Below are positions 307-29,167 of a DNA stretch of 37,793 nt, piece after piece. Position numbers and translations under genes: made by a program. The DNA lies in IMG/VR virus record IMGVR_UViG_3300032322_002209, positions 1-37,793 of that record; one strand, written 5' to 3'. This DNA is from a virus. Position 1 is the stretch's first letter; each line of letters begins with the position of its first letter. The notes below the pieces were generated by a model. That model did no database searches, was not told the origin of the DNA, and saw only the letters and a program-made list of their open reading frames with translations.

Positions 307-501
307 TCACTTGTTCTTGACTGGACTGAGGGAGTTAGCCCCCACTCCCTTCTCAATAGACTTTAGCCGCTCGTATTCCTCGACCGCCATTACCACAACG
401 ACCGCCCGCCCATGCTTTTCGACCGTCACCGGCTCCGATCGCGCTGTATCTATGAGGCGGCCGAAGTTGTATTTGGCGTCCCTGGCCGATAGCGTTTGCA
501 T
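307..501 (-). CDS. Phd/YefM-family antitoxin-like protein without a visible toxin
   Basis: The chosen ATG at 501 gives a 64-residue protein, MQTLSARDAKYNFGRLIDTA..., which fits the Phd/YefM antitoxin fold: an N-terminal Ala/Asp segment that forms the DNA-binding dimer, then a strand pair (EPVTVEKHGRAVVVVMAVEEYERL) typical of the family. The frame stays open upstream to 714, but that extension overlaps the o-spanin gene and looks unlike the family, so the short start is preferred. Family members normally repress their own operon and neutralise a RelE- or Doc-type toxin encoded directly downstream. Here the downstream gene is the HsdM-like gene, 11 bases away, and no toxin is seen on either strand. 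It may act as a repressor of the restriction genes, or be a leftover of a toxin-antitoxin pair. Confidence 0.8.
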   Translation of the reverse strand: MQTLSARDAKYNFGRLIDTARSEPVTVEKHGRAVVVVMAVEEYERLKSIEKGVGANSLSPVKNK

Positions 502-535
502 GACTCGCCCGAAGCTGATCTTTCGCCTTAGTTGT

Positions 536-548
536 GGCCAAAATGGCC
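536..548. promoter_or_regulatory. Perfect inverted repeat, candidate operator before the Phd/YefM-like gene
   Basis: The sequence GGCCA-AAA-TGGCC is a perfect 5-bp inverted repeat, about 35 bases upstream of the antitoxin ATG, in the 65-base gap after the o-spanin stop. Phd/YefM proteins autorepress by binding short palindromes near their promoters, so this is a reasonable operator. No strong -35/-10 pair is evident beside it. Confidence 0.35.
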
Positions 549-566
549 GAAACTGCAAGCGTTTTC

Positions 567-791
567 TCAACGACGGGCGCAAGCCCGAGCCTGCTCTCTC
601 ATCACCTGGTAATCGGCAAGCATCTGCTCGATCGCCGCTCCAGACGGGAGCTGCTGAACCTCTCCCTCCGCTCGCGCGAGAAACTCTTGGCTGTAGGCCG
701 GCACTGGCGGGCATCCTCCCCCGTTAGAACGAGCCGTCGCGCATCCGGCTAGCAAGCTCGTCGCGATCACGAGGACGGCGAGACGCGGCAT
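567..791 (-). CDS. Outer-membrane spanin lipoprotein (Rz1-like, o-spanin)
   Basis: The ATG at 791 gives a 74-residue protein with a signal peptide (MPRLAVLVIATS) and a lipobox LLAGC, with the lipid-bearing cysteine at residue 17. A short Gly/Pro-containing stretch (GGGCPPVPAYS) and a helical tail follow. The gene begins inside the i-spanin gene in another frame and ends beyond it, the overlapped Rz/Rz1 layout of lambda-type phages. In that family the lipoprotein sits in the outer membrane and bridges the periplasm to the i-spanin, fusing the two membranes at the last step of lysis. The frame is open upstream to 905, but that start would put about 38 residues before the signal peptide and is rejected. 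Confidence 0.85.
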   Translation of the reverse strand: MPRLAVLVIATSLLAGCATARSNGGGCPPVPAYSQEFLARAEGEVQQLPSGAAIEQMLADYQVMREQARACARR

Positions 792-1665: not shown

Positions 1666-3039
1666 TCAAGCGGCGGCGAGTTCCGCCGGCAGGGTGATCA
1701 CGGGGATCCGGGTCGGCAGGCCGTCACGTCGCATCACCGGGCCTTCGATTTCGACGAGGACCAGCCGAGTGAGCCAGTAGAGGGATGCCGCGAGGACAGC
1801 GAGATTGTGAGTGAAGCTGTTGTCGCAGGCCTGCCGCCACAGCCCGTCTTCGAGGAAGAGACATGCGCCTCGGCAGAGCTGCAGCACCGGACAATTCCGG
1901 CATTCCTCGCGTGTCGACCAGTGATGTGCCGTCGTCAAACGAATGTCTTCAAACGCCTCGATCGAACCGATCCGGTGCTTGGTGGCAGCACTCGTGTTCT
2001 GGCACGTCAGGACGTTGCCTTTTAGATCGACCGCAAGATCACCAGGTCGATCCATCCCGCACTTCTGGCCGAGCGTCGATGCCGGTCGCGCCTGTGCCAG
2101 CGAGCGAAAGAACTCCTCGATCTTTCCTCGAAGGGTCGATACCGGCATGCTCTCGCCACGCACAGCTTCCCAGAAGACCGCTTCGAGGTAAGTGCGATGT
2201 TCTTCTTGCGTCTGCGGCGACAGGGTGATCCCGCCCTGATCGTAGGGCAGCAGGATTTCCTCGGTGGTGAGCTGCAGATCATCCACGGGAACGCCCAGTC
2301 GCTCGGCGATGTGTCGACGCACCGCTGCCAAGGACGTGTTGTGCTTGTGCAAAACGCAGTTGAAGCCGATACGGCCCCAGGGGCGCAGACGATCGTAGAG
2401 CTTGCGGATCGCTGCCCGCTGGGACGGGTCTTCCAGCGGATCTGGTCCCCGGAAGTGCATCGCCGGCCCATCATGGCTGATCCCAACGCTGAACCCGAGC
2501 GCGTCGAGTAGCTCGATCCTGTCGCCGTCGATCAGGGCGCCATTGGTAATGATGTTGAAGCGCGCCTTCGGATAGGCCGATCGCAGCGCGGATGCGAGCA
2601 CGCGAAAGGTCTTCCAGTAGACCAGCGGTTCACCGCCCCAGAACTCGATCCGGACGCCGCTGCCGTCTCCCTTCTCACCCCCGTCGAACCACTTCGGCAG
2701 CGACGCAAGGAAGCGATGAACGTCGCCGATGTCTCCCTGGATTTCGTGGGGCTGGGATGCCTGGTTGCAGTAGGTGCAGGCATAGTTGCACTTCAGCCCC
2801 ATTTGGATCTTGAGGAGCCGCGTGTCTCTGGACTTGCGGCCCGGGTTCCGAGGGGAGATCGGCTCCGCCACGCTCCACTGCCGTGGGACAGAGTCGTACT
2901 CCATCCCGACCAGACGGATATCGACCCGCTCACCCGTGTCTTCCCACAGGAGTTCAGACCGATGCGGTCGGTAGAGCAACGCGCGCGCATATCCGTTCCG
3001 GCCCGCCATCGCGAGCCGGTATTCCAGATTATCGGTCAT
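1666..3039 (-). CDS. Radical SAM/SPASM peptide- or protein-modifying enzyme
   Basis: A 457-residue protein with the radical SAM signature CxxxCxxC (C84, C88, C91; LKCNYACTYC), the GGEP motif at 135-138, and a complete SPASM pattern: C327, C346 (GNVLTC), C380, C383, C389, C393, C405. The spacing C-x2-C-x5-C-x3-C matches the SPASM domain of anSME and RiPP maturases, which holds two auxiliary [4Fe-4S] clusters. Known relatives install thioether or C-C crosslinks, or oxidise side chains, in ribosomal peptides or proteins. The first 75 residues are not recognised; a RiPP recognition element cannot be excluded by eye. It starts 9 bases after the 2OG-oxygenase-like gene and lies in one transcript with the tail fibre whose end is an Asn/Cys repeat; that fibre is the obvious candidate substrate. 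The function as an enzyme is secure; the substrate is inferred. Confidence 0.92.
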   Translation of the reverse strand: MTDNLEYRLAMAGRNGYARALLYRPHRSELLWEDTGERVDIRLVGMEYDSVPRQWSVAEPISPRNPGRKSRDTRLLKIQMGLKCNYACTYCNQASQPHEIQGDIGDVHRFLASLPKWFDGGEKGDGSGVRIEFWGGEPLVYWKTFRVLASALRSAYPKARFNIITNGALIDGDRIELLDALGFSVGISHDGPAMHFRGPDPLEDPSQRAAIRKLYDRLRPWGRIGFNCVLHKHNTSLAAVRRHIAERLGVPVDDLQLTTEEILLPYDQGGITLSPQTQEEHRTYLEAVFWEAVRGESMPVSTLRGKIEEFFRSLAQARPASTLGQKCGMDRPGDLAVDLKGNVLTCQNTSAATKHRIGSIEAFEDIRLTTAHHWSTREECRNCPVLQLCRGACLFLEDGLWRQACDNSFTHNLAVLAASLYWLTRLVLVEIEGPVMRRDGLPTRIPVITLPAELAAA

Positions 3040-3048
3040 TGAGGTTCT

Positions 3049-3681
3049 CTAAAGTTGGGTGTAATGGCGCGCCGGATCAATGACGCGAATGTTGGTCACG
3101 AGAGCGACGGTGTCCCGGGCCCCAAGATTGACTTCACTCGTATGGAAGATGTGCGCTGGGTGAATGACGAGCAGCCCGGGCATTGGACGTATTGCATGCA
3201 GCATGGTGTGATTGAGAAAGCGGGAGCGTGCTGCAATCGGATCAATTAAGTGGAGCCGGTTTCCAGCGGGCTGTTGATGGCGGTCGCTACCATCGTCGGT
3301 TTGCACCAAGGCGAGCCAGAGGACGGCGACATAATCGACGCTGCGGTGGTTGTGCGGTTTGGCATATTCTCCCGGCCCAAATCGGCGGAGCGCGCAGACA
3401 GCTTCATAATCTATGTCTTCCGTGAACCCCTCCGCCTTGGCTAAACGCCGCATGCGATCACTGAGGATTGCCTTAAACGCAACTGCATTCGCGCGATCAT
3501 CTTTTAAAAGATTGTAGCTGACCTCAGGACCGGGGCGCATGGCGGCAGGTTTATGAGCATGCGGATGAGTAGCCTCATATTCGTCTCCAATTGAAATCAG
3601 GCCCTCGATTGTTTGGGGTGACAGGGCGCCTGTCAAATTCTCCACCCAGATATTGGTCGGCCAAAGAGTGAGGACGCTCAT
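3049..3681 (-). CDS. 2OG-Fe(II) oxygenase-like protein (putative TIGR02466-type)
   Basis: The ATG at 3681 overlaps the stop of the upstream gene in an ATGA junction and gives 210 residues; a TTG 36 bases further up is less likely. The second half has the pattern of a double-stranded beta-helix oxygenase: KPHNHRSVDYVAVLWLAL (H110, H112), GNRLHLIDP (141-148), PGLLVIHPAHIFH with H180, and R189 in GARDTVALVTNIR, a likely 2-oxoglutarate anchor. This order resembles the phage-associated TIGR02466 family as I remember it. Such enzymes hydroxylate side chains using Fe(II), O2 and 2-oxoglutarate. The usual H-x-D/E ligand pair reads H-x-H here, so activity needs care. The neighbours are the Asn/Cys-tailed fibre and the radical SAM enzyme; hydroxylation of Asn or Asp in that tail is an inference. 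Confidence 0.7.
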   Translation of the reverse strand: MSVLTLWPTNIWVENLTGALSPQTIEGLISIGDEYEATHPHAHKPAAMRPGPEVSYNLLKDDRANAVAFKAILSDRMRRLAKAEGFTEDIDYEAVCALRRFGPGEYAKPHNHRSVDYVAVLWLALVQTDDGSDRHQQPAGNRLHLIDPIAARSRFLNHTMLHAIRPMPGLLVIHPAHIFHTSEVNLGARDTVALVTNIRVIDPARHYTQL

Positions 3682-4487
3682 GTGATCACGATTTTCTTTT
3701 GCGAAATACCGGGCCAAAACTTGTATCCAGTCTTGATCACGATCTCGTCGCCGGTCTCCAGGCCACGTGTGTCGAGAAGAATACGTTGGCCGCTTTTGGC
3801 GCGAGACCTATTCAATATCCCCGCACTGGCGTCGATGTAAATTTCTCCGCCACTTTGACCGGTTGCTGAAATTTCAACGAGTGTGTCTGGTGCTGCCTTT
3901 TCGGGTCCATTTATTTCTATTACCAGCCATGTTTCTAGAAACATCTTGAGCGATTCCAGAGCTGGCGGGACAAAAGACTTTTTATCGACGACCAACCTAT
4001 GACTTGTTTTGTTGTTCAAAGGTGTCTCAGGATCATTCTCTACATCATGAAAGATCAGAATTGCGTCTTCGACAGCACAGCCCCGTGACGGCGTCAAAAC
4101 ATAGAGAAATGAAGTCGCATCAAGTCGCTGCCGCAAAACCCACGAAGGTGAGGCCGCGTTGTGTCGTCCTTTGGTGTTTAGAGTGTCCTTCAGCGACGGA
4201 CCCGTTTCCATGACCGACGTGTAAGAGCGATCGGACGCTATTCGCTCAGAACAGGAAAATCGTGTCGTCTCATGCCAGATCAGATCATCTGGAAACTTCG
4301 GGCTCCAGCAAAGAGCAACACAGCCATGATCCTCGCCATAGGCTTTGATCACTTTAGCCAAATCGTAACTGCGCGAAATTCTTTTATCTTTATTGGGCCA
4401 TGAGACTTCGACATTTAGTATTCCCGCCGACAGGTTAACCATACTGTTTGCAGGCATGAGCTTTCGCCCAATCCGAAATATTTTCAT
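3678..4487 (-). CDS. Unrecognised 269-residue protein between tail fibre and oxygenase
   Basis: I do not recognise a family. The ATG at 4487 lies 12 bases after the fibre stop and the gene ends in an ATGA overlap with the oxygenase-like gene, so it belongs to the same transcript. The N-terminal half (to about residue 190) is soluble, mixed alpha/beta. The last 75 residues (VEISATGQSGGEIYIDAS... to KKIVIT) alternate hydrophobic residues as in an Ig-like or beta-sandwich domain. There is no signal peptide or membrane segment. The DNA is visibly AT-richer than the tail genes around it, with AT-rich codons, suggesting recent acquisition with the fibre end. It might be a fibre chaperone, an extra fibre-tip subunit or a partner of the modifying enzymes. 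Confidence 0.8.
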   Translation of the reverse strand: MKIFRIGRKLMPANSMVNLSAGILNVEVSWPNKDKRISRSYDLAKVIKAYGEDHGCVALCWSPKFPDDLIWHETTRFSCSERIASDRSYTSVMETGPSLKDTLNTKGRHNAASPSWVLRQRLDATSFLYVLTPSRGCAVEDAILIFHDVENDPETPLNNKTSHRLVVDKKSFVPPALESLKMFLETWLVIEINGPEKAAPDTLVEISATGQSGGEIYIDASAGILNRSRAKSGQRILLDTRGLETGDEIVIKTGYKFWPGISQKKIVIT

Positions 4488-4499
4488 AGGGAGCCCCGA

Positions 4500-5555
4500 T
4501 CAGCAATTGCAGTTACAATTACAGTCACAGTTGCAGTTGCAGTTCGAATAGCAGTTGAAGCCACCGCAATTGCAGTTGTTGAAGTTCCTTCGATACTCGC
4601 CGCCGCCGATTTCATCCGCAGCGAGATTGTATCCGGCATAGACGAACCCGACGGATACCGGCTGGTAGGTGACGCTGGAGCCGCCCGCGAAATCAAAGCC
4701 GCTCGGATTGGCTGGACCGAAGCCCAAGCCCCATGTCCACCAATTTCCATTAGGTGGGGTCCATTGCGTGTTACCTAAACAATTACCGTTGGGAATGTAT
4801 CCCGAGCAATTATTCACTCGGTCATCGTAGTACTGGTTTGATCTGTTGAGCTCGCCGATATCTGAACCATCAGCAATTTTGAAGCCCGTTGATCTCGCGC
4901 TGTCTCCTGTTGCCCCTGATCGCACTGAGCCAGTCGAGACCAGTCCGGGCGCCGTCAAAGCCCCAGTCATCGTATCGCCCGACTTGGCGACACGGCTTCC
5001 GAGATCAACTCCGGCACGAATGTCGGTAATAGTCTGGCTTGCAAGATCACTTGTTGTGATCGTGCCATCCGCAATTTTTGCGCTAGTGATAGCGCCGTCG
5101 GCGACCTTGGCCGTCGTTACCTGCGCATCAGCGATCTTGGCCGTGGTGACCTGTGCGTCGCCGATCTTTGCCGTCGTGACGGCGCCGTCCTGGACCTTGG
5201 CGGTCTGGACGGCGGCATTATCGATATCGGAAGCCGCGACCGTGTTTTTGACGGCAAGTCCCGCCAAGCCAAGATTGCTGCGGGCTGTCGCGACGTCTGT
5301 CGCATTCGTGCCGCCCTGTGAGATCGGAACAGGAACACCGAGCGGTATGCGTGTCCATGTGACGGGCGAGGCAATGGTCAGCTGGTAGAGCTGGCTCAGA
5401 TCGGTCCGAAAGCAGAGCATCCCAACGACCAGATTTGTGCTGGGAAAGGTCGTGCCGGAAAAAGCCGAGCGGATCGCCTCGTCACGATCAAGGATATCCT
5501 GCCGGCTATCTCGGACCGCCTTGGTCGCTGGGATATCGGGATAGGTTTGGGCCAT
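4500..5555 (-). CDS. Tail fibre with a C-terminal Asn/Cys-repeat tip
   Basis: A 351-residue fibre. Residues 1-80 look like an attachment domain. Residues 111-170 are six 10-residue repeats (type VTTAKIADAQ), usual for fibre shafts, and GDTMTGALTAPG (193-204) is a widespread fibre motif. The distal part (about 238-325) is Asn/Gly/Trp/Tyr-rich with C250 and C259. Residues 326-351 form an extraordinary tip: ten cysteines (328, 330, 335, 339, 341, 343, 345, 347, 349, 351) almost strictly alternating with Asn (one Asp), ending in Cys at the stop. Outside this tip and C250/C259 only C48 is cysteine. The start has a GAGG ribosome site. The next three genes in the transcript are an unknown protein, an oxygenase-like protein and a radical SAM/SPASM enzyme, so the tip is likely modified after translation. 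Host-receptor binding is the expected role. Confidence 0.88.
   Translation of the reverse strand: MAQTYPDIPATKAVRDSRQDILDRDEAIRSAFSGTTFPSTNLVVGMLCFRTDLSQLYQLTIASPVTWTRIPLGVPVPISQGGTNATDVATARSNLGLAGLAVKNTVAASDIDNAAVQTAKVQDGAVTTAKIGDAQVTTAKIADAQVTTAKVADGAITSAKIADGTITTSDLASQTITDIRAGVDLGSRVAKSGDTMTGALTAPGLVSTGSVRSGATGDSARSTGFKIADGSDIGELNRSNQYYDDRVNNCSGYIPNGNCLGNTQWTPPNGNWWTWGLGFGPANPSGFDFAGGSSVTYQPVSVGFVYAGYNLAADEIGGGEYRRNFNNCNCGGFNCYSNCNCNCDCNCNCNC
4503..4580 (-). other. Asn/Cys dipeptide-repeat tail, candidate substrate of the neighbouring maturases
   Basis: These 26 codons encode the last residues of the fibre, including the run NCNCNCDCNCNCNC. Both Cys codons (TGC and TGT) and both Asn codons (AAC and AAT) are mixed, and one codon is GAC (Asp), so the pattern is kept at protein level and is not a fresh hexamer expansion. 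Ten free thiols on a virion surface would be unstable, which favours crosslinking, metal binding or modification. The first two explanations need no enzyme; the third fits the gene context. Confidence 0.85.
5046..5225 (-). repeat. Six tandem 30-bp repeats in the fibre shaft
   Basis: The DNA encodes six consecutive 10-residue units (residues 111-170): IDNAAVQTAK, VQDGAVTTAK, IGDAQVTTAK, IADAQVTTAK, VADGAITSAK, IADGTITTSD. The same unit type occurs in many phage tail fibres, where it forms trimeric shaft segments. The repeat number can change by recombination and alter fibre length. Confidence 0.9.
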
Positions 5556-28432: not shown

Positions 28433-28762
28433 TCAGGTGACGTCCGGATCCTTCATCCAGGCAGGGATGTCGCGCTCGGCATGGAGCACGCGCCAGACGT
28501 CGATGTGGGTCTCGCGCTCGATGTAGAACACGAGATAGGGATAGCGCTTCAGCGGCCAGAACTTGAGGCCCTGCAAATCGAGCTCATGGGCATAGCGGCT
28601 GGAGCCGCTTGCAGGGTGCCGACCGACATGCTGGTAGGCTCGCTCCAAAGCGTCGACGAACCCCAAGGCGACGGCTTCACCGCCTTGGTCGAGATAGTGG
28701 TCGAGCGCCTCTTCGATGTCCCGGTTGGCAAGCTCGCGCGGAATGACCGGCTTGGCGGTCAC
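28433..28762 (-). CDS. parE: ParE-family toxin
   Basis: A 109-residue RelE/ParE superfamily protein: ANRDIEEALDHYLDQGGEAVA (about 11-31), then ALERAYQHVGRHPASGSSRYAHELDL, WPLKRYPYLVFYIERETHIDVWRVLHAERDIP at the end (here given only by VFYIERETHIDVWRVLHAER, 77-96). The RVLHAxRDI ending is the ParE hallmark. Known ParE toxins poison DNA gyrase. The ATG at 28762 overlaps the parD stop (ATGA), giving the usual antitoxin-first order. It may stabilise the prophage. It ends 15 bases before the small terminase gene. Confidence 0.92.
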   Translation of the reverse strand: MTAKPVIPRELANRDIEEALDHYLDQGGEAVALGFVDALERAYQHVGRHPASGSSRYAHELDLQGLKFWPLKRYPYLVFYIERETHIDVWRVLHAERDIPAWMKDPDVT

Positions 28763-28998
28763 GTCGCTCGATTGCTGCGGACCCTGGCGCGCAGACCCTC
28801 GAAATAGCCGTCATCTGCCGTTGCAGCCGGCGCCGACTGGGCGCCTTGCAGCAGCAAGCCGCGCAGACGCTGACGATCGACGTCCTTGCGAATGAGCTCG
28901 CGCACATATTCGCTGCTCGTCCCAAAGCCGCGCGTCGTCACCTGCTCGTCCACGAAGGACTTGAGCGATTCCGGCAGGGAAATGTTCATCGTGCTCAT
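28759..28998 (-). CDS. parD: ParD-family antitoxin
   Basis: A 79-residue ribbon-helix-helix protein from the ATG at 28998 (MSTMNISLPESLKSFVDEQV...); a second ATG at 28989 is just as plausible because relatives start MNISLPE. NISLPESLKSFV forms the DNA-binding strand, RGFGTSSEYVRELIRKD the helices, and the Ala-rich C-terminus (GAQSAPAATADDGYFEGLRAR) should bind ParE. The open frame to 29088 covers the promoter and is not used. It should repress its own promoter just upstream. Confidence 0.92.
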   Translation of the reverse strand: MSTMNISLPESLKSFVDEQVTTRGFGTSSEYVRELIRKDVDRQRLRGLLLQGAQSAPAATADDGYFEGLRARVRSNRAT

Positions 28999-29004
28999 GC
29001 TGGC

Positions 29005-29033
29005 AAGATAGGCGCTTTGGCAAAATTTGGCAA
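29005..29033 (-). promoter_or_regulatory. Promoter of parDE with direct repeats
   Basis: In the gene's sense TTGCCA (29033-29028), a 17-base spacer, then TATCTT (29010-29005), close to sigma-70 consensus. TTGCCA occurs three times at short intervals (29033, 29022 and 29006 as left ends, approximately), possible ParD sites. The expected transcript start is at or next to the ATG at 28998, so the mRNA would be leaderless from that start or have a leader of about 9 bases if the ATG at 28989 is used. Confidence 0.6.
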
Positions 29034-29167
29034 GGCCGAACACCCGGGCGACCACTGCCATTCGGGCTGTTGGCAGCCAAAAAAGCAATGAAATGATGTG
29101 CTTATCGCCTTGCTAGGTGCGTCGATCAGAGCCTGTATGGAGCCACAATCAAGCGCAGGAGAGCGCC

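Follow-up and report, generated by a model that had tools for sequence, protein, structure and literature searches.

An Asn/Cys-repeat tail-fibre tip and its radical SAM/SPASM partner: a likely phage-borne maturation cassette

Background

In sactipeptide and ranthipeptide systems (CteB, PapB, SkfB, thuricin CD), a radical S-adenosylmethionine (SAM) enzyme with SPASM domain is encoded beside a Cys-rich ribosomal substrate with a repeated Cys core, and some of these systems possess two radical SAM enzymes. QhpD and anaerobic sulfatase maturase (anSME) are radical SAM/SPASM enzymes acting on large proteins, namely cellular enzymes; QhpD forms Cys-to-Asp/Glu thioethers. Here we analyse a locus in a 37,793-nt virus record (IMG/VR record IMGVR_UViG_3300032322_002209, positions 1-37,793; the whole stretch is referred to as the window). 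Its tail-fibre gene (F) ends in an Asn/Cys (NC) repeat, hereafter the tail, and is followed by genes for a partner protein (U), a 2-oxoglutarate (2OG)-Fe(II) oxygenase-like protein (O) and a radical SAM/SPASM enzyme (R). NC-tailed fibres and the R family are almost inseparable over many phages and at least 23 clusters of fibre bodies. Judging from these sequences, many phages carry NC-ended fibres along with radical enzymes of their own that very probably remodel the tip.

The locus resembles sactipeptide and ranthipeptide systems in its organization, and CteB is the nearest fold to R. In contrast to them, the substrate would be a whole virion structural protein with a C-terminal (N/A/D)-C core, the cassette has no visible leader or recognition element (RRE) of ribosomally synthesized and post-translationally modified peptides (RiPPs), and R stands outside the named maturase families. 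QhpD and anSME both score against R; unlike their cellular substrates, the phage substrate would be a fibre tip found on many unrelated bodies. Among phage fibres, iron-binding His-x-His (HxH) tips have been described, including those of T4 gp37 and Alteromonas phage R22Y (PMC11705849). These share a short repeated ligand-x-ligand motif with the tail, but they are non-covalent, employ His instead of Cys, and no dedicated enzyme partner is described there. The R family itself is listed as phrog_1802 ("radical SAM domain-containing protein", category "other", without function) and occurs in Achromobacter phages JWF and 2-1 downstream of an NC-core fibre which, unlike F, continues into a Hint domain. 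No description of a phage virion protein with RiPP-like core and its own maturase was found in open-access literature (subscription journals and bioRxiv lay outside the search); an earlier note, made from the letters of the window alone, likewise knew of no comparable system.

Results and discussion

Organization of the locus

The cassette comprises the following features (position in the window, strand, description, basis):

4500..5555 (-), F, tail-fibre protein of 351 amino acids, proposed substrate; open reading frame (ORF), tail-fibre PHROGs, homologues
4503..4580 (-), Asn/Cys-repeat tip of F, 26 residues with 10 Cys, proposed modified core; sequence
3678..4487 (-), U, 269 amino acids, near-constant partner, proposed to present the substrate or cap the tip; homologues in most cassettes, AlphaFold2, Ig-like matches
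3049..3681 (-), O, 2OG-Fe(II) oxygenase-like protein of 210 amino acids, putative accessory tailoring enzyme; phrog_81, PF13759, His pair
1666..3039 (-), R, radical SAM/SPASM enzyme of 457 amino acids, proposed core maturase of the phrog_1802 family; family models, motifs, AlphaFold2

The window record is siphovirus-like, with J, tape measure, minor tail proteins, terminase and a protease-capsid fusion. F is identified as tail fibre by its match to phage tail-fibre families, obtained via its repeat region in PHROG search, and by its location in the tail module behind J. It consists of N-terminal anchor (MAQTYPDIP...), middle part made of TAKIADAQVTTAK repeats and the NC tip, its C-terminal sequence being ...FNNCNCGGFNCYSNCNCNCDCNCNCNC followed by stop codon. 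The 26-residue repeat with ten Cys and a terminal Cys, the common direction of the genes and the 12-base, ATGA and 9-base junctions, all reported in the earlier note, are indeed present. Twelve bases (4488-4499) separate F stop from U start, U stop and O start overlap in ATGA, and 9 bases (3040-3048) lie between O stop and R start. O likely starts with ATG at 3681, not with TTG at 3717 listed by the ORF tool, because its homologues start there.

R contains all three radical SAM and seven SPASM cysteines that the earlier note had counted, as documented by motifs, family models and conservation in homologues. The radical SAM motif reads CNYACTYC (C84, C88, C91) and the complete SPASM pattern is C327-x13-G341-x4-C346 / C380-x2-C383-x5-C389-x3-C393 / C405. 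Over 53 R homologues, C84, C88, C91, C327, C346, C380 and C383 are invariant, and C389, C393 and C405 are conserved in at least 90%. Both PF04055 and SPASM model TIGR04085 exceed their curated cut-offs, and phrog_1802 is matched with E 2e-53. AlphaFold2 predicted R at pLDDT 95. Nearest PDB folds are CteB (5why/5wgg; "thioether bond formation in the biosynthesis of sactipeptides"), anSME and ChlB, then TigE, SuiB and SkfB; the epimerase EpeE is found among the matches as well.

U, termed an unknown protein in the earlier reading, is a near-constant partner of the cassette. Pfam, NCBIfam and PHROG searches gave no family match, and full-length relatives were detected only among unnamed phage proteins. 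It is predicted at pLDDT 83 (AlphaFold2) with a confident Ig-like beta-sandwich at the C-terminus, evolves fast (mean column identity 16%) and has few Cys. O matches phrog_81 2OG-Fe(II) oxygenases (E 9e-11) and, below cut-off, PF13759 (E 2e-4). H122 and H192 are invariant among O homologues, while the middle ligand position varies between His, Glu and Asp. PDB sequence searches with O and U returned no matches. O is optional, a second radical SAM enzyme taking its place in the closest relatives of the window, and neither U nor O is recognisable in 10 cassettes that have tail and R.

Conservation of the tail

Among 138 distinct tails, Cys is preceded by Asn in 838 of 1121 cases, then by Ala (114) and Asp (71). 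Cys-Cys spacing equals 2 in 718 cases, and the terminal residue is Cys in 104 of the 138 tails. The same type of tail is conserved on unrelated bodies: the census covers at least 23 body clusters, a number that drops to 7 under single-linkage without coverage rule, since some bodies share the N-terminal anchor. Synonymous codons are mixed (TGC 629, TGT 302; AAC 479, AAT 269). Chance or simple-repeat DNA is thus rejected as origin of the tails, because codons vary while residues stay.

Co-occurrence of the tail and R

We wondered if such fibres and radical SAM/SPASM genes also occur together in other phages, the check proposed in the earlier note. They do so by four approaches and in both directions. 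All counts given here are samples into which some related phages entered more than once. Scanning IMG/VR with R yielded 419 relatives, and 80 loci were retained from these; the GTDB genome scan yielded 67 loci. Where 2.5 kb or more of sequence precedes R, we searched the 5 kb upstream for an ORF on the strand of R that ends in CxCxC. Such an ORF was present for 72 of 78 viral R genes and in 39 of 53 genome loci, where many misses are gene fragments. Several R loci scored as misses carry the NC core immediately ahead of a Hint domain. In these loci, 121 of the 1225 ORFs that share the strand of R and lie within 5 kb upstream are NC-tailed, as against none of 1160 downstream, none of 2824 on the other strand and 2 of 602 at greater distance.

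The reverse direction was examined by scanning IMG/VR DNA for the pattern NCNCNC[x]C without reference to R. Among the matches listed, an intact R lies within 6 kb of 39 out of 41 distinct C-terminal tails having at least 3.5 kb behind them. The two remaining tails also have R, as a broken fragment (L186) or reaching the end of the stretch (L159). Matches without radical SAM gene are short chance frames.

Fibre homologues were further retrieved by body, using F with the tail removed as query. Among those with sufficient DNA, tail and R were both present in 38, both absent in 10, the tail occurred without R once and R without tail never (Fisher p 1e-9). The single exception has R about 6 kb on, beyond desaturase-like genes. 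Tail-less homologues resemble the F body only in its repeat part.

Finally, in 298 whole genomes of the Thalassobacter stenotrophicus family, the NCNCNC[x]C-stop pattern occurs in one genome, three times, each tail being 0.7-0.8 kb ahead of an R match. The three prophage cassettes of the type strain T. stenotrophicus CECT 5294 (L250; G002 contigs C25 and C32) have NCNCNCRC tails and are located near tail-fibre genes.

Natural exchange of a module

Comparison of the window with related loci revealed an exchanged segment:

3040..4530 (-), last ~9 fibre-tip codons, U and O; per-gene and sliding identity

This segment is akin to L003 and L204, while both flanks are akin to L001, L002 and L004. Window and the latter sisters are 93-94% identical in fibre body, 85-87% in R and 88-94% in the upstream protein. 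Between fibre and R, however, the sisters encode a different U and, in place of O, a second radical SAM enzyme of 340 amino acids. Their tails end in CDCNCACGDG, whereas the window tail ends in CDCNCNCNC as in the more distant L003 and L204. To the L003/L204 type, U and O of the window are 57% and 83% identical, respectively, and the fibre genes of window and L003 are identical over their final 27 bases including stop. The break point falls within the tail-coding repeat. On these identities, tail end and accessory genes moved as one module while fibre body and R remained. Since the swap comprises the last tail residues along with accessory genes, it couples the enzymes to the tip itself, beyond any linkage with the fibre gene.

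A corresponding trend was observed over the whole sample. No tail of 12 with second radical SAM ends in Cys, as compared to 98 of 120 without it and to 63 of 66 in cassettes with O. The correlation has p 0.002 and 0.0003 when R is clustered at 80%, but it is not significant at 65% or lower; it rests, the module swap aside, on few lineages and is used here only as support for the swap. The second radical SAM/SPASM family (~340 amino acids) is found between U and R in L001 (4977-5999), L021 (4981-5997) and ~18 further matches. It was not seen together with the 2OG enzyme in the cassettes compared.

Proposed function of the cassette

As in RiPP systems, a ribosomal substrate with conserved core is genetically linked to a modifying enzyme. 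It is highly likely, from the genetic coupling described above, that R modifies the tail, and likely that F-U-O-R as a whole represents a phage-borne maturation cassette for the tail-fibre tip. The earlier interpretation that the enzymes modify the fibre tip is thereby supported. In favour of the proposal are also the nearest fold of R, thioether-forming CteB of sactipeptide biosynthesis, and its sequence scores, the highest being obtained with nif11, geopeptide, PapB and QhpD-type maturases. The enzyme classes suggest thioether crosslinking and hydroxylation; that R produces mainly thioethers is favoured only slightly over the contrary.

We propose that F bears a RiPP-like core of alternating (N/A/D)-Cys at its extreme C-terminus. 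By means of its SAM cluster, R would abstract hydrogen from core residues, most likely Asn and in some cases Asp or Ala, and form Cys-to-carbon thioether bridges, with Cys held by auxiliary clusters. The thioether SPASM enzyme PapB accepts many Cys-Xn-Asp spacings, with six rings in one peptide (PMC9413430). A floppy Cys-rich tail would be converted into a rigid, redox-proof knot. Neither a leader peptide nor an RRE domain in R is visible; the most likely role of U is to present or cap the tip. A second, exchangeable modification would be introduced by O; other phages would employ the second radical SAM, desaturase-like enzymes or additional oxygenases for this purpose. Where the core is followed by a Hint autoprocessing domain, as in some phages, self-cleavage would make the core C-terminal. 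The finished tip may represent a receptor-binding or envelope-contacting element, with chemistry set post-translationally and swappable by recombination.

Several observations weigh against this proposal. Best scores of R reach ~60 bits against cut-offs of 340-520 for named NCBIfam RiPP maturases (PapB, SCIFF maturase, QhpD, nif11, geopeptide, CcpM and others). Membership of R in a named maturase family was therefore rejected; by that test R forms a family of its own. Predicted R revealed no RRE-like domain, its N-terminus being a small three-strand sheet without RRE-type helices, and the combination of leader peptide and RRE known from RiPP systems was not found, the core being located at the C-terminal end of a structural protein. 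Cys-rich CxC tails could also serve as metal ligands while remaining covalently unmodified. The correlation of tail end with accessory genes, as stated above, loses significance at coarser clustering.

The tail might also be a substrate of R yielding a product other than thioether, which we consider possible, though rather doubtful. Examples are epimerisation to alternating D-residues, which would give a beta-helical tip, chemistry at C-beta of Asn/Asp, formation of a C-C crosslink and processing of the terminal Cys. SPASM enzymes catalyse many reactions and EpeE is among the fold matches. The strict X-Cys alternation could suit a D/L-alternating design, and accessory oxygenases together with desaturase-like enzymes suggest chemistry beyond thioethers. 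On the other hand, R is closest in fold to the thioether synthase CteB and to anSME, a Cys-built core is what thioether enzymes use, and the full auxiliary-cluster Cys set of R fits the thiolate binding proposed for them (PMC9413430).

It is improbable that the tail serves as a needle tip binding metal or Fe/S, R and O acting elsewhere or helping in metal loading. The inseparability of tail and R and the exchange of the tail end along with accessory genes argue against a needle, although CxC repeats at a trimeric tip could point Cys inward like HxH. The HxH motif is absent from the F tip, and we know of no enzyme partner for HxH tips.

Very improbable is a role of R (and O) as metabolic or anti-defence cargo that targets U or a host molecule and merely adjoins the fibre: U accompanies the cassette nearly as regularly as the tail does and radical SAM genes of Campylobacter phages have been read as metabolic cargo (PMC2853527), but U has few Cys and is missing or unrecognisable in some cassettes, and the tail occurs on unrelated bodies and, among fibre homologues, is confined to those accompanied by R. 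Metabolic cargo as principal role of R was rejected because the R gene tracks the tail. Campylobacter and Thermus phage radical SAM enzymes are only distant relatives of R, and no NC tail was seen at the annotated Campylobacter locus.

Coming back to tip maturation by R, we think it rather probable that tailed phages of many Proteobacteria (and contigs in bins of other phyla) share a general modular system in which fibre tips are completed by radical chemistry. It would combine one NC core on many unrelated fibres, constant radical SAM and U, and exchangeable second enzymes or Hint self-cleavage; tip chemistry would be a swappable host-contact trait, independent of fibre fold. If true, the host-touching part of a virus is finished post-translationally, like a small natural product, and phage host contact may depend on chemistry invisible to sequence-based prediction of receptor-binding proteins. 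Crosslinked tips would thereby be established as a modular, genetically encoded class, and a large family of orphan enzymes, with 419 related viral stretches obtained in a single scan, would receive a function.

Cassette variants and other observations

In some fibres, the NC core runs directly into a Hint domain:

L085 3835-5286, L082 3844-5286, L019 2-850, L034 3501-5072, L043 3413-4354: core-then-Hint fibres

These include Achromobacter phages JWF and 2-1 along with L019, L034 and L043. The JWF junction reads NCNCDCNCNCS-CFPAGTMV, and PF05203 is matched from residue 308 (E 3e-12). This suggests that Hint self-cleavage would leave the NC core C-terminal, as in other phages.

Longer cassettes, with desaturase-like and extra oxygenase-like genes between fibre and radical SAM, were observed in L051 (2371-3881), L072 (1576-5337) and L289 (7514-11705). 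L051 encodes a fatty-acid-desaturase-like enzyme (PF00487, E 2e-15); several accessory proteins had no match in Pfam search. Three short NC-tailed proteins are encoded in tandem ahead of one U-O-R set in L069, L071, L080 and L159. Divergent radical SAM genes are present in L097 (3054-7591, tandem), L103 (158-2635) and L154, and very short NC-tailed proteins (67-79 amino acids) in L097 and L103.

Other repeats were also found beside radical SAM genes. In Thermus phage Cumys (L083, 3997-5028), a tail-region protein of 343 amino acids with His/Asp repeats (DTHSDAHGD...) is encoded directly upstream of the distant radical SAM gene, possibly an analogous pair with another core. L094 (1958-2754) encodes a CQTCQGCQ-repeat protein ending in QNCNCDCNCNCSDDS; its neighbours are a small Hint-like protein, encoded separately, and a divergent radical SAM.

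Elsewhere in the window, a ParE/ParD-like toxin-antitoxin pair (28433-29088, minus strand) and a lone Phd/YefM-like antitoxin (307-714, minus strand) were recognised by eye.

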